A stretch of 64,000 nt of DNA from Saprospiraceae bacterium. Its GTDB lineage: Bacteria; Bacteroidota; Bacteroidia; Chitinophagales; Saprospiraceae. Below the pieces are notes generated by a model. That model was given only the letters and a program-made list of their open reading frames with translations. It did not search any database and was not told where the DNA came from. Numbering within the stretch: the first letter of the stretch is position 1; each line of letters opens with the position of its first letter. Of this stretch, positions 36,259-47,131 are shown in pieces. The stretch spans positions 1 to 64,000 of the forward strand of contig JAHDES010000015.1 in the NCBI GenBank assembly GCA_020628645.1. Reading direction: 5' to 3'. The translations under genes were made by a program, and so were the position numbers.

Positions 36259-37379
36259 TTAACTCAACTCATATCTAAAATCAGGATGTTCGGAAACAAA
36301 ATAAGAAAGAGCAATTTCTTTTTTATCTTTTGGAATACGATTTAGATCAAATAACATTTTGGGGATTGTTAAACTACTCGTATCTACTTTGATCCATTCG
36401 TTTTCATAGACTTGAATTGATGTAAGTAGTACGAGTTTGTCATAATCTTCGTCTGGTGCAGGACGAAAAGGAAGTTGCTGACACAACTCAAAGCTTTGAT
36501 GTGTTTTCCAATTGGGAGTTTTATGGATATAGGAACAGATGAATGTTTTATCAAAATCTAAAATGGTTTTTAATTTTTTATAGCGAAATTCAGTTTTTCG
36601 TTCTAAACTTAATTGAGTACTTGTATTCATTAAGGCTAGTTCTAATCGAATAGTACTCGGTATCACTAAAACATCTTCTTTTAGTTGTTTTACCAAATTC
36701 ATCATAATGGGGACTTGTTGTTCTTTAACCAAAGCATTTTGCATCGTTTCACTTAGGAGTATGTCAATCTCTGAGGGATTTTGGAGTTTAAATTTTGTAG
36801 CATCCTCGCAATGGATGGCTTTGATATAAGCTTGTATTTTCAAATTTTTTATTACCTCTTTTAAATATGAAATGGTTTTCTCATTGACTTCTAATACCGA
36901 ATTAAAAAAATCCTTTCGTATATAATTTATGATTTTTTCAAATCGGCATTATACGTTGAAGGTGTGATTTACGAAATCACTTATTCAATTGCGTATAATA
37001 AGATAAGTTGTAGCTCTTGAGGACTAAACTTGGTCAAAATCGGAAGACTAAGAGTGGCAAAAGGACCTGTTCCTGCATAGAAAAGCGTAATAGGTTTTGA
37101 TTTTTTCAACTGAAGATCTTCGATTGCTTGATAAATGCCTCGAATAAATTGTCGTGTTCTAATAATATCATCAATACAACGGGCAGCAAAAGTGGTACTT
37201 AGCGCCATCCCATTTTCATGATGAATATCTTTTTTATTTTGTTCATTTTCTAAAACAAGTCCAGATAACTGGATTAACTCTTTACTATATTCGTTTAATT
37301 TGTCCTTTAAATCAAGAAAATGGATTTCTTCTTTTAGGATTTCATCCATGACTCCTTCTATAGTGATTATTTTTTTCAT
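36259..37379 (-). pseudogene. SAM-dependent methyltransferase-like gene split by a 101-base element
   Basis: The 5' part starts at the ATG at 37379 and reads 128 codons to the class I motif I strand (ITLFYAGTGPFATLSLPILT, then ELQLILL). It then runs into the inserted element and stops at 36981. The 3' part resumes at 36891 with EVNEKTISYLKEV and continues to 36259, ending in a normal C-terminus (DILLSETMQNALVKEQQVP is its best conserved stretch). Joining Leu (36996-36998) to Glu (36889-36891) removes 104 bases and gives a 338-residue protein. The junction falls exactly where motif II should be, with the ribose-binding Glu. The 3' part could be translated from a TTG at 36843 as a 194-residue fragment lacking the SAM site. 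The substrate of the intact protein is unknown. Confidence 0.85.
36892..36998. mobile_element. 101-base miniature inverted-repeat element, copy 1, with TAA duplication
   Basis: The core is 36895-36995 (101 bases), flanked by TAA on both sides (107 bases in all). The plus-strand left end is TACCGAATT...TTTCGTATAT. The right end read inverted is TACGCAATTG...TTTCGTAAAT, so the terminal inverted repeats are about 28 bases long and roughly three quarters identical. Copy 2 at 47025-47131 has the same length, starts TAATACCGA, and shares 26 of the last 29 bases. It interrupts a methyltransferase gene. It encodes nothing. Confidence 0.85.
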
Positions 37380-42368: not shown

Positions 42369-44450
42369 TTATTGATCAGGGCAACGTACTGAGAAAGTAT
42401 TGGCTGGCACATCTAAAATAGCGCCTTCTTCTACCGTGAGGGTATAACAACTGGCTGGGATCATGCCTACTTCCACCGTGCTTCCTGCTGGAATAATTAC
42501 CTCATTGCACTCATTTGGAATAGTACCCAAACTCCAGTTGGAGGCATTGTGCCAATCGGAATCTGTAGCAGTTAGTAACCAAGTATTAGTTGTGGTGATA
42601 TAACAATTGGGACAAGATTGGCAATCGGTCAAAACTTCAGCAGCAGAGTTACAACCAGTGAGATTACTCTCGATTTCATGCGACTTATTGGGATCGTTTA
42701 AAAAATCACATACGGCTTTAATACCACAGTAGGAGAGTGCTTCTGCATAGTAGATACTCAAATAATCACCATCAATGACTTGAAGATTTTCTAAAGCAGA
42801 AATATCACTCATACCATAGTTTTCATAGATGTAAACATCGCTACCAATATATTCGAGACGCTCCAAGCCATCGAGTGAAACTAGATTATAATAACAATAA
42901 TAAATTTCTAATAAGCCGCCTATTTTTTGGAGCGAGTTCAAGCCCTCCAAATTGACAAGAGGATCTATTTCTTCAATGTATAATGTACCACCAATGGAAT
43001 CTAAATTATTTAGCCCCATCAGATTGCTTATATTTAAGACTTCTAAACCTAAAGTTCCTTGCACATAATTGAGTTTGCTTAGCGAGGCAAGGGAACTCAA
43101 TCCTGTGCAATCTTCGATATATAACATTCCTCCAACAGTTCCCAAAGATTCACATCCCGTTGCCATATCAAGTTTATTACAGTTTTTGATATTAAAATCA
43201 TTTTCAACCATCGTAATATTCGTAAATCCATCAAGATTCAATAGTTCTGGATTGTTTTCAATATGAATATCATAACAAGTATGGAGTTCTTCCAAACCAA
43301 TAGTCGTGGTCAAAGAATCGTTTGTTTCGACATTGATAAAGCTGCCTATGGATTGGAGTTGGGTAAAGGGCATAAAATCTTTAATCCGTTTATTCTTACG
43401 AAAACGAAAAGATGAACCTATGGATATCAGATTATCCAATCCACCTAAATCAAGCAAATTATCATTGTTTTCAATAATTAATTTCTCTTGGATGATTTCA
43501 ATACAACTAAGGGTACTGATGGAAGTAATATCAGAAGTGATATTGCTTTCAAAAGGATAACCAATGGTCAATTTACCAACGGTATTGGTACAACCCGAAT
43601 TGGCAACAAAGGCATCTACTTCTGCTTGCGTTTTCAACCAAAAATCGGTAGCTCCTTGACAAGCTGAATAAATTTCTGTGGCAGAGGCACAGCCTGTTCC
43701 ATTGTTTTGAATAGAAATAATTCCTTGTTCATTGACGATGGCATCACAGATCGCTTCTATAGAACAATTGCTAAGTGACAGATTATTTTGGATAAATACG
43801 TTTTCTCCGATTTTTGGTAAATTGATTAATGCACTGATATCATTGAGCTGACTATTGTTTCGGAGGTCAAAATGAACCAAGCTATCTATTCCCTCTAAAC
43901 CATTCAAATTGAGTAATGAATGATTACTTTGAATGTTAAAGGAATTAATTTTAACGGATTCCATCCCTTGGAAGTTGACGATTTGAGGGATGCCAGCACA
44001 ACTGAAGTACCCAATCCCTTCTAATTTATCCAAGCCTGCAAAACTTGACAATACATCATTGTAGCCTATTTGCAATCGGTCAATATACTCGACATTACTA
44101 AGTCCTGTAAAATCAACCAAATTCGGATTTCTTGCGATGATAACATAACCACCTGTTTTGAGACTATCCAAACCTGTAAGATCAGTAAATAGATTATCAG
44201 AAATGAAGGCAAACTCTATATGCCGTAGATAAATGAGGGAATCCAAGTTGGTAATGTCTGTTACGCTATTGCCATCTGTATTGCCAATACGTAAATCTCC
44301 TATTAGGGAATCACAATTGGGATAATTCATTGGAAAAGCATCTACTTCTGCTTGTGTATTTAATCGTATAGTAGAAGTAGGACACTGACTAAATGAATAG
44401 CTCCAGTGGAACAGCGTGATGAGTAAAAGACTTATGAGTTTAGAATACAT
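42369..44450 (-). CDS. secreted leucine-rich-repeat protein, paralogue 1
   Basis: The 693-residue protein has a signal peptide (MYSKLISLLLITLFHWSYSF, then SQ). It contains two receptor-L-like leucine-rich-repeat domains, each beginning with a CxxxxxLxTQAEVDAF-type cap (about residues 23-260 and 268-610) and ending in a Cys-containing CSIEAICDAI or CGIKAVCDFL cap. Repeats follow the pattern L..I.G.L.I..N..L..L.GL..L. The last 80 residues (DWHNASNWSLGTIPNECNEV, then CYTLTVEEGAILDVP) form a beta module but no T9SS sorting domain, so how it is retained at the surface is unclear. It is about half identical to the next gene upstream and exactly the same length. Confidence 0.8.
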   Translation of the reverse strand: MYSKLISLLLITLFHWSYSFSQCPTSTIRLNTQAEVDAFPMNYPNCDSLIGDLRIGNTDGNSVTDITNLDSLIYLRHIEFAFISDNLFTDLTGLDSLKTGGYVIIARNPNLVDFTGLSNVEYIDRLQIGYNDVLSSFAGLDKLEGIGYFSCAGIPQIVNFQGMESVKINSFNIQSNHSLLNLNGLEGIDSLVHFDLRNNSQLNDISALINLPKIGENVFIQNNLSLSNCSIEAICDAIVNEQGIISIQNNGTGCASATEIYSACQGATDFWLKTQAEVDAFVANSGCTNTVGKLTIGYPFESNITSDITSISTLSCIEIIQEKLIIENNDNLLDLGGLDNLISIGSSFRFRKNKRIKDFMPFTQLQSIGSFINVETNDSLTTTIGLEELHTCYDIHIENNPELLNLDGFTNITMVENDFNIKNCNKLDMATGCESLGTVGGMLYIEDCTGLSSLASLSKLNYVQGTLGLEVLNISNLMGLNNLDSIGGTLYIEEIDPLVNLEGLNSLQKIGGLLEIYYCYYNLVSLDGLERLEYIGSDVYIYENYGMSDISALENLQVIDGDYLSIYYAEALSYCGIKAVCDFLNDPNKSHEIESNLTGCNSAAEVLTDCQSCPNCYITTTNTWLLTATDSDWHNASNWSLGTIPNECNEVIIPAGSTVEVGMIPASCYTLTVEEGAILDVPANTFSVRCPDQ

Positions 44451-44880: not shown

Positions 44881-46962
44881 TTAGTCTAGAGGATTGATGG
44901 TTAATACTTCTGAAGGAACATCAAATACGGCTCCTTCTTCCACCGTCAATGTATAACAATTAGCAGGTGCATTACTGATAAGGACGTCGCTTCCTGTAGG
45001 AATGATCACTTCATGACAAGTAGACGGGACAAGTTCTAGACTCCAATTGGCGGGGTTGTGCCAATCCGTATCGATGGCAGAATTGACGAGCCATGTATTA
45101 GCAATTGTGGCACAACAGCCCGAACAGGTTTGGCATTCTGCAAGAATTTCTTCTATTGAATTACAACCTGGTAAATTAAATCCAACATCATACGTTTTTG
45201 TTGGATCATTTAAAAAGTTACAGATCGGTTCGATACTACAGTTGGAAAGCGATTCACATTCATCAATTACAATATAATCGCCTTCTATGGCTTCTAAGTT
45301 ACTTAATGCTGAAATATCATTTAAGGCATAATTTTCTTCTAGATATAATACATCACCAATGTATAATAAATTTTCTAAACCGTTGAAATTGATTAAATTA
45401 TAATAGCAATAGTAGATTTCAAAAGAGGTGCCGATCCGTTTTAAAGCATTAAGACCTTGCATATTGACTAAAAACTCCAATTCCTCGATATAAAAATATC
45501 CACCAATAAACTCCAAATTATTCATTCCTGAGAAATTAGTGATTCCTATGTAATAAAAATAAAAATTGTCCCCAACGAATTTAAGCTCTCTCAAGGAAGC
45601 GAGTGAAGTAAGATTAGGACAATCGTATAAGATAAATTCTCCTCGTATAAATCGTAAGGACTCCAAACCTGTATCAAGATTAAGTAAGCCCATTTCATTG
45701 AGTTCTAAGGAAAGAATAATGGATTGTATATTGGTAAATCCATCAACATCTTCTAATTTGGGGTTGTTTTCCATAAAAATCCCATAAGCGAAAGAGATTC
45801 CTTCAAAACCAGTTGTTGAAACCAAAGAATCATTGTTGATAATTTGAAAATTTCCTCCAACTGAAGTGACTTGATCTAATGGCGTAAAGTTCTTGACTCT
45901 TTTATTTTCGTTAAAGCGAAAAGATTTTGCAATAGATTTTACATCATCTAAACCCGATAAGGAAGACAAAGAGTCATTGTTTTCAACTACCAAATGTCCC
46001 GTAATAAATTCAAGACAATCTAAGTTATCAATGGTTTTGATATTAGAGGTCACATTGGTTTGGAAGGGGAGACCAATAATTAGATTATCTACGGTATTGA
46101 TACAGCCATTATTGGTTTTAAAATCGTCAATTTCTTCTTGCGTTGTTAGCCAATAATCGTCAGCTCCTAAACAATTATTAAACACTACAGGAGCAGATTC
46201 ACATCCTGTTCCATTTCCAAAGATGGTGATATTACCCTGTGTTTCGACAATAGCATCACAAATCGCTTCTACTGAACAATTACTTAAGGCTGGATTATTA
46301 AAAATTTTGACATTATCATCAATTTGTAAGACATTGTTGAGCGCACTAATATCATTGAGTACATTATTATTATTAAGCGTTATACTGGTTAAACTGTCTA
46401 CTCCTTCCAATCCACTGAGATTAAGGAGGGCAGGGGCATAACTAACTTGAATATTTTTAACTTTAGTAGATTCTAGTCCTTGAAAATTTACTAATTCTGG
46501 ATTTTCACTAGAATCTAGGTTTTTTACAAACTCTAAACTTTCAAAACCATTGAAATTGGGTAAGATGTCATTATTGTTAACACTAAACGAGCGGATATGG
46601 CTCAAGGAATCTGCCCCTTCAAAACTGCTAATCATTGGATTACTCACCACGACAAACTGATCAGCTGTTTTTAAGCTGTCCAAGCCTGTTAAATTTTCTA
46701 TTTGAGTACTTGCGATGAAAAAAAGCTGCGCATGACGAAGATAGGTCATGGAATCTAAATTGGTAATATCCGTTAAAGTTGTTTGTGATGGATCGCCAAT
46801 AAATAAGTCTACAGTAATGGAATCACAATTGGGATACAGCGTTGGGAAATTATCCACTTCTGCTTGTGAACCAAGGATAATTTCAGCAGTTGGACATTGA
46901 CTAAATAAATAAGTTGAATTTAATAGCAATAAGAGACAAAGACGGAAGACTTTAGAATACAT
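44881..46962 (-). CDS. secreted leucine-rich-repeat protein, paralogue 2
   Basis: The 693-residue protein has a signal peptide (MYSKVFRLCLLLLLNSTYLF, then SQ) and the same two LRR domains, caps and C-terminal module (DWHNPANWSLELVPSTCHEV, CYTLTVEEGAVFDVP) as paralogue 1. The conserved order of caps and module and the equal length show a whole-gene duplication. It lacks a T9SS sorting domain. The leader carries copy 2 of the 101-base element, which moves the conserved 36-base block away from the start by about 107 bases compared with paralogue 1. Expression of this copy may therefore differ. Confidence 0.8.
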   Translation of the reverse strand: MYSKVFRLCLLLLLNSTYLFSQCPTAEIILGSQAEVDNFPTLYPNCDSITVDLFIGDPSQTTLTDITNLDSMTYLRHAQLFFIASTQIENLTGLDSLKTADQFVVVSNPMISSFEGADSLSHIRSFSVNNNDILPNFNGFESLEFVKNLDSSENPELVNFQGLESTKVKNIQVSYAPALLNLSGLEGVDSLTSITLNNNNVLNDISALNNVLQIDDNVKIFNNPALSNCSVEAICDAIVETQGNITIFGNGTGCESAPVVFNNCLGADDYWLTTQEEIDDFKTNNGCINTVDNLIIGLPFQTNVTSNIKTIDNLDCLEFITGHLVVENNDSLSSLSGLDDVKSIAKSFRFNENKRVKNFTPLDQVTSVGGNFQIINNDSLVSTTGFEGISFAYGIFMENNPKLEDVDGFTNIQSIILSLELNEMGLLNLDTGLESLRFIRGEFILYDCPNLTSLASLRELKFVGDNFYFYYIGITNFSGMNNLEFIGGYFYIEELEFLVNMQGLNALKRIGTSFEIYYCYYNLINFNGLENLLYIGDVLYLEENYALNDISALSNLEAIEGDYIVIDECESLSNCSIEPICNFLNDPTKTYDVGFNLPGCNSIEEILAECQTCSGCCATIANTWLVNSAIDTDWHNPANWSLELVPSTCHEVIIPTGSDVLISNAPANCYTLTVEEGAVFDVPSEVLTINPLD

Positions 46963-47024: not shown

Positions 47025-47131
47025 TAATACCGACTTGATTAATTCATTTCGTATATATTAGAATGAATCAAGTACGGCATTATACTTTTAAGGTATACTT
47101 TCTACGAAAGCATTTATTCAATTTCGTATAA
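47025..47131. mobile_element. 101-base miniature inverted-repeat element, copy 2, with TAA duplication
   Basis: The core is 47028-47128 (101 bases) with TAA on each side. It starts TACCGACTTGATT with TTTCGTATAT at 21-30, has CGGCATTATAC in the middle, and ends TACGAAAGCATTTATTC then AATTTCGTA. The same landmarks occur in copy 1. The corresponding place in front of paralogue 1 (AAAATAGACTAAGGTAGTTT, 44501-44520) has a single TAA and no element, against AAAATAGGCG-TAA-element-TAA-GTAGTTT here. Confidence 0.85.

Follow-up and report, generated by a model that had tools for sequence, protein, structure and literature searches.

What interrupts an otherwise open minus-strand reading frame in a Saprospiraceae genome, and how did the interrupting DNA get there? 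The frame lies in the window, by which we mean the whole 64,000-nucleotide stretch of DNA that was analysed. Its 5′ fragment (36996–37379, minus strand; 128 codons from the ATG) contains FYAGTGPFATL and, by direct reading, runs ...LQLILL up to position 36996 before continuing as YAIE and a stop in the interrupting DNA. The 3′ fragment (36259–36891, minus strand; 210 codons plus the stop) restarts in another frame at the Glu codon 36889–36891 as EVNEKT.... Between the two lies a 101-bp core (36895–36995, plus strand; TACCG...GCGTA), recognised by sequence reading, BLAST and a covariance model as a miniature inverted-repeat transposable element (MITE) of what we call subfamily A. It is flanked by identical TAA triplets at 36892–36894 and 36996–36998, of which the right-hand one, read as TTA on the minus strand, encodes the final Leu ahead of the break. 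Taking out 104 bases, namely the core together with a single TAA, joins the fragments into 338 codons, all of them open. An earlier note on this DNA had placed the break at that Leu and the resumption at that Glu, and had attributed the frame shift to a 101-base element plus one TAA; the reading proved right to the base.

Homologues of the 3′ fragment were detected in 8 of 59 other genomes searched, all from other genera. Every one of the eight frames is open over at least 328 codons, the best (L122) being 48% identical, and all eight continue uninterrupted across the junction, collinear with the rejoined frame that the note had described as open throughout; at the junction, for example, L122 reads ALQFIFLEVNTST against ELQLILL|EVNEKT. 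The extra bases, which the earlier note's account required intact homologues to lack, are absent from all eight, and the insertion point falls inside the core common to them. The interrupted gene had no match in either of two same-genus genomes, and therefore no empty site was seen within the genus.

The name methyltransferase, which the earlier note gave to this gene, fared less well. It goes back to conserved motifs: YAGTGPFATL, followed about 25 residues on by LLE[IV]N, which we take to resemble motifs I and II of class I SAM-dependent methyltransferases. Pfam, NCBIfam and PDB profile searches returned no methyltransferase match for the gene or its homologues, and we accordingly treat its function as unproven. 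One homologue weakly matched the ErmC leader-peptide family (E 0.089), the 3′ fragment, with its structure predicted by itself, reached a mean pLDDT of 37, and synteny around the bestrophin neighbour in five related contigs was uninformative.

The interrupting DNA belongs to a large repeat family. BLAST with the region found at least 40 places in the same genome at 85–100% identity, the query counted, and also listed 11 shorter opposite-strand matches. A covariance model built from 31 copies (E up to 0.001) gave 92 matches, which reduce to at least 87 loci in the 6.18-Mb draft genome once four opposite-strand echoes of stronger matches and the two halves of one element are allowed for; this figure is a minimum because scoring covered 150 of 9935 candidates from the first look. 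Allowing three mismatches at most, a 32-letter end pattern marked 154 ends in this genome and, when reversed as a control, none. The copies are dispersed, their flanks are unrelated, and they contain no transposase gene. Median nearest-sibling identity is 97% among 51 aligned own-genome copies, and between the reported copy and its nearest sibling identity reaches 99%. In the 78 copies that remain for triplet analysis after nine truncated or solo loci are left out, length ranges from 95 to 257 bp, with 44 copies at 101 bp. The earlier note had pointed to one other copy, at 47025–47131 (plus strand, between genes), and had called for a search of the host and its relatives with the core. That copy is indeed a family member with TAA on both sides, but it belongs to a clearly diverged subfamily B (84 against 134 bits), and beyond it the search yielded the many host copies counted above together with five divergent ones in the same-genus genome G001. 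Close by in the window, two neighbouring minus-strand frames of 693 aa each (42369–44450 and 44881–46962), with Pfam matches of leucine-rich-repeat type, are perhaps a tandem pair.

The ends and flanks of the copies indicate how the element inserts. In the reported copy, the left arm of the terminal inverted repeat (36894–36923) pairs imperfectly with the right arm (36967–36996; both plus strand), whose minus strand holds the 26-bp end TACGCAATTGAATAAGTGATTTCGTA; the arms measure 30 nt and are 73% complementary, close to the 28 bases estimated earlier. Flanking triplets were equal in all 31 first-aligned copies (24 TAA, 7 TTA) and in 69 of the 78, every equal triplet being TWA. The nine copies with unequal triplets all score at most 101 bits, compared with 135 bits for the best copy. 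That the middle base of TWA varies between copies and yet agrees on both sides of each is what target duplication predicts, and the mirrored preferences outside the triplet (A or C in front of it, T or G behind it, and A/T-rich sequence farther out) are as expected of a symmetric double-strand cut. Read in the element's orientation, TAA outnumbers TTA by 46 to 23 (binomial P 0.008), an excess that a symmetric mechanism leaves unexplained. A TA duplication of the IS630/mariner type was rejected: the frame needs 104, not 99, bases taken out, and the two flanks share the W of TWA.

Taken together, copy number, equal TWA triplets and uninterrupted homologues support the miniature inverted-repeat insertion that had been proposed from this sequence. 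This is a new MITE family of a known kind, visible in its repeat copies, its ends, its TWA triplets and the disruption of a gene. We assign a probability of roughly 85% to the full reading, in which a member of this family, inserted with TWA duplication by a putative DDE transposase acting in trans, broke an otherwise open frame. Such an enzyme would recognise the ends of about 26 bp (approximately TACSVAATTGANNAANNNNTKTCGTA) and make cuts staggered by 3 bp at TWA in the target, which would duplicate the triplet at every insertion; selection would then remove most insertions into genes. We infer a DDE enzyme because the duplication resembles those of two known groups. The IS1031 group of the IS5 family duplicates 3 bp at TNA, according to PMC12016507, and TWA is a subset of TNA; the ISLrh ends given there are unlike the present ones, however, and neither PF01609 nor PF13586 has a match in the host draft. 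PIF/Harbinger elements likewise duplicate TWA, as PMC4482050 describes, but they are eukaryotic, whereas the present host is a bacterium whose draft has no match to PF13359, and the DDE_Tnp_4 (PF13359) loci of relatives, three in number, do not carry the present ends.

A parent element was sought more widely. Searches of the 98-contig host draft assembly with PF01609, PF13586, PF13359 and PF13358 gave zero matches, and paired element ends were found at none of the 40 transposase loci checked in relatives (30 of 58 PF01609 matches, 3 of 3 PF13359 and 7 of 7 PF13358). No parent bearing these ends was seen among the lone ends of the host's own draft assembly. Two candidates were rejected: an IS982 copy (L252, in G270) is flanked by TTA but has different ends, and the broken DDE_Tnp_4 transposase gene of G001 (L211; G001:C32:19526-19936), which contains three stops, has no matching ends. 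Perhaps no enzyme is left to move the family, or perhaps the enzyme is missing from the draft or belongs to a transposase family other than these four.

The copies also fold. Each strand of the reported copy is predicted to form two hairpins, the first with an AT-rich stem (36897–36946) and the second at 36949–36998, and pairing was then counted over the copies. All 53 aligned copies (51 from the host, 2 from G001) fold below their shuffle mean on both strands, with mean z values of −5.2 and −4.1 for the two strands (30 shuffles each). When the two-hairpin structure of the reported copy is laid over the alignment, 88.5% of cells pair, compared with 35–48% when it is slid, although a structure taken from one of the tested sequences is favoured over its slid versions and one of its helices pairs in 70% of cells only. 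Both-side changes occur in 14 of 36 pairs, against a shuffle mean of 7.4 and with none of 500 shuffles reaching 14, although many stem changes separate the two subfamilies and so represent fewer events than cells. RNAalifold, run on the first 31 copies, preferred another right-hand fold, with a covariation term of +0.04 and paired changes in 3 of 24 pairs, which gives its own consensus no covariation support. Because of the weak helix, the self-derived structure, the subfamily split and the RNAalifold result, stem conservation across copies is suggestive only.

Around the double hairpin, the family varies in modules. Copies of 120, 128–132, 150, 157 and 173 bp bear extra GC-rich hairpins at fixed places in the element, namely CCCGTACCTGCAAGGTCGGG and GCCTGCCCGACTCTGGCGGG (carriers L063, L067, L068, L070, L073–L078, L080–L083, L085–L091, L097, L099 and L110). 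With up to three substitutions, these two modules matched 23 and 7 times in 115 own-genome loci plus the window, always inside element copies or truncated remnants. One copy, L066:1001-1107, is chimeric, with one half from subfamily A and the other from subfamily B, which suggests recombination between copies. Another, L102:1001-1263 (G000:C85:275828-276090), has been entered by a second insert, about 150 bp long and bounded by inverted ends of its own, GTATGTCTAAA...TTTAGACATAC; this is perhaps another MITE family, and no further intact copy of it occurs in the examined own-genome loci. Units of 44–47 bp similar to hairpin 2 also stand alone elsewhere in the genome: at 44 bp, L103 and L109 with equal TAA and L112 with unequal triplets; at 47 bp, L114 with TTA on both sides. 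Solo units of 26 bp likewise have equal triplets at L223, L235 and L236 and unequal ones at L116 and L238. The double-hairpin form, the GC-hairpin modules, the half-swapped copy and the solo units of 26–47 bp are unusual. On the DDE reading, the hairpins would be a consequence of internal repetition of the ends, the short solo units would derive from deletions that join one TWATAC or CGTATWA repeat to another, and the half-swapped and GC-hairpin variants would stem from recombination or template switching.

The same features could instead be read as the mark of an enzyme that recognises the fold: a Y1 (RAYT/HUH) transposase would move the repeats, as hairpins of the REP/REPIN type, in single-stranded form. 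PMC3116915 describes REPINs as small paired hairpins, extragenic, with compensatory stem changes and two alternative folds. The present elements share the two hairpins, the folding of all 53 aligned sequences below the shuffle mean, the paired stem changes, the scarcity of copies in genes and the existence of solo hairpins of 26–47 bp. They differ from REP and REPIN sequences in their long conserved ends and clear target duplication, the two flanks sharing the middle base of TWA at 69 of 78 copies; this makes a Y1 origin improbable in our judgement. We know of no REP/RAYT system that makes a target duplication. An equally doubtful variant takes the folded form itself as the transposing unit, so that an enzyme recognising the hairpin ends would move the 101-bp double hairpins, foldback relatives of 155–175 bp and single 26–47-bp hairpins alike. 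Six single hairpins have equal TWA triplets of their own (L103, L109, L114, L223, L235, L236) and three do not (L112, L116, L238); a 3-bp duplication is not known to us from hairpin-directed transposition. If such fold-directed movement were true, few transposing DNA units would be smaller than these hairpins of 26–47 bp.

A functional RNA or regulatory element (a terminator, RNase III site or mRNA stabiliser), spread by its usefulness and only secondarily mobile, would also account for the paired stem changes that one test showed and for copies lying mostly outside genes. The genomic context of the copies bears on this. After exact excision, two of the 78 copies, those in the reported gene and at L015, leave a frame of no fewer than 100 codons that extends at least 20 codons to either side. 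Most copies thus lie outside genes, in a window of which about 90% is open frame. A count of zero copies inside a longer frame is uninformative here because the element itself holds stops. At the 72 of 78 copies that could be placed, ignoring frames that overlap the element by more than 15 bases, neighbouring genes are codirectional in 44 cases, convergent in 17 and divergent in 11, compared with 23, 7 and 6 for gaps in the window; no preference is evident in this comparison, which was made without a formal test. The window contains no Rfam match at the gathering score, and a known Rfam RNA was not supported, the matches being sub-threshold and the strongest of them (E 1.4e-6) lying outside the element. 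The reported copy has one promoter-like match, fewer than its shuffles, and no terminator-like site; moreover, the RNAalifold consensus is without covariation support, and quasi-palindrome correction can also give paired changes. We consider a primarily regulatory origin very unlikely.

One other gene has probably, and a further one possibly, been hit by the same family. Removal of one or two bases more than the exact excision gives spanning frames at 2 and 5 of 78 copies; the three removals together involve eight different copies, five of them with 20–35 codons on the shorter side. Frame length alone is therefore indecisive, and the two split genes rest on homologues and a profile match. At L015:1501-1607 (G000:C85:160750-160856), a copy sits right after the QGKGYGK motif of a GNAT-like frame. 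Up to that motif, the part of the frame upstream of the copy matches PF13508 (E 1.1e-4, under that family's cut-off) and PF00583 (E 2.5e-4, above its cut-off); the downstream piece alone gave no GNAT match. This copy likely, though not provably, splits a GNAT-like acetyltransferase gene. At L053 (C80:16507), a 116-codon frame runs into a copy, with a downstream frame that looks like chance, and may represent a third damaged gene.

As for the reported gene, the insertion has most likely left a pseudogene. The rest of its 338-codon frame is undamaged, which would suit expression of the fragments as separate or recoded polypeptides, yet the break within the core of the eight homologues makes this highly improbable, and the little further decay follows from a recent insertion, as the 99% identity of the element to its closest sibling suggests.

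The host is probably a member of the Saprospiraceae: for one neighbouring protein, metagenome assemblies of that family come first among the matches, at 78 and 76%. Among 39 other relatives, the covariance model matched in G001 only, at the five divergent loci. An exact 18-letter end pattern occurs in 45 of 398 genomes of the host's family, the host included, and its reversed control in 19, so that the single matches, which are many, may be background; the host has 87 matches, G348 13, G368 5, G248 3, and G346, G270 and a few others 2 each. Longer relatives of 155–175 bp with similar 26-bp ends occur in four genomes of three other genera. All seven relatives with paired ends (L225, L226, L231, L232, L233, L237 and L239) have equal TWA triplets; six of the 155–175-bp relatives were folded and gave one long hairpin each, and five are 58–87% identical in one alignment. 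Carriage as phage or plasmid cargo was unsupported: the exact end patterns were absent from viral contigs, and blastn against phages and plasmids was empty. The core of one relative weakly matched 53 bp between two genes of an Aureimonas plasmid.

Bacterial MITEs, as described in PMC10969869, PMC9769881 and PMC4596501, are short, non-coding, many-copy elements with inverted ends, target direct repeats and stable stem-loops, and are mostly intergenic. QMITE2 of Coxiella, MITECca01 of Cardinium and BrickBuilt of Porphyromonas have these traits in common with the present family, to which Correia, RUP and ERIC elements are likened here by name only. It is set apart by its TWA duplication, its two-hairpin modular core and the fact that no parent insertion sequence was found; MITECca01, by those accounts, has an IS982 parent, and the BrickBuilt ends resemble those of the IS5-family ISPg1 and ISPg9, unlike the present ends. 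No name for the family was found in MITE literature on Saprospiraceae, Bacteroidetes or Bacteroidota, although word searches cannot find a sequence and it may go under another name.

With these results, a bacterial family that has been little studied gains a well-defined MITE family. Its precise ends and duplication rule allow copies to be sought in any genome and the transposase to be hunted, and they improve how split genes are annotated. Together, the double hairpin, the module changes and the solo units form a natural series for asking whether folding has a part in MITE movement or in decay only.
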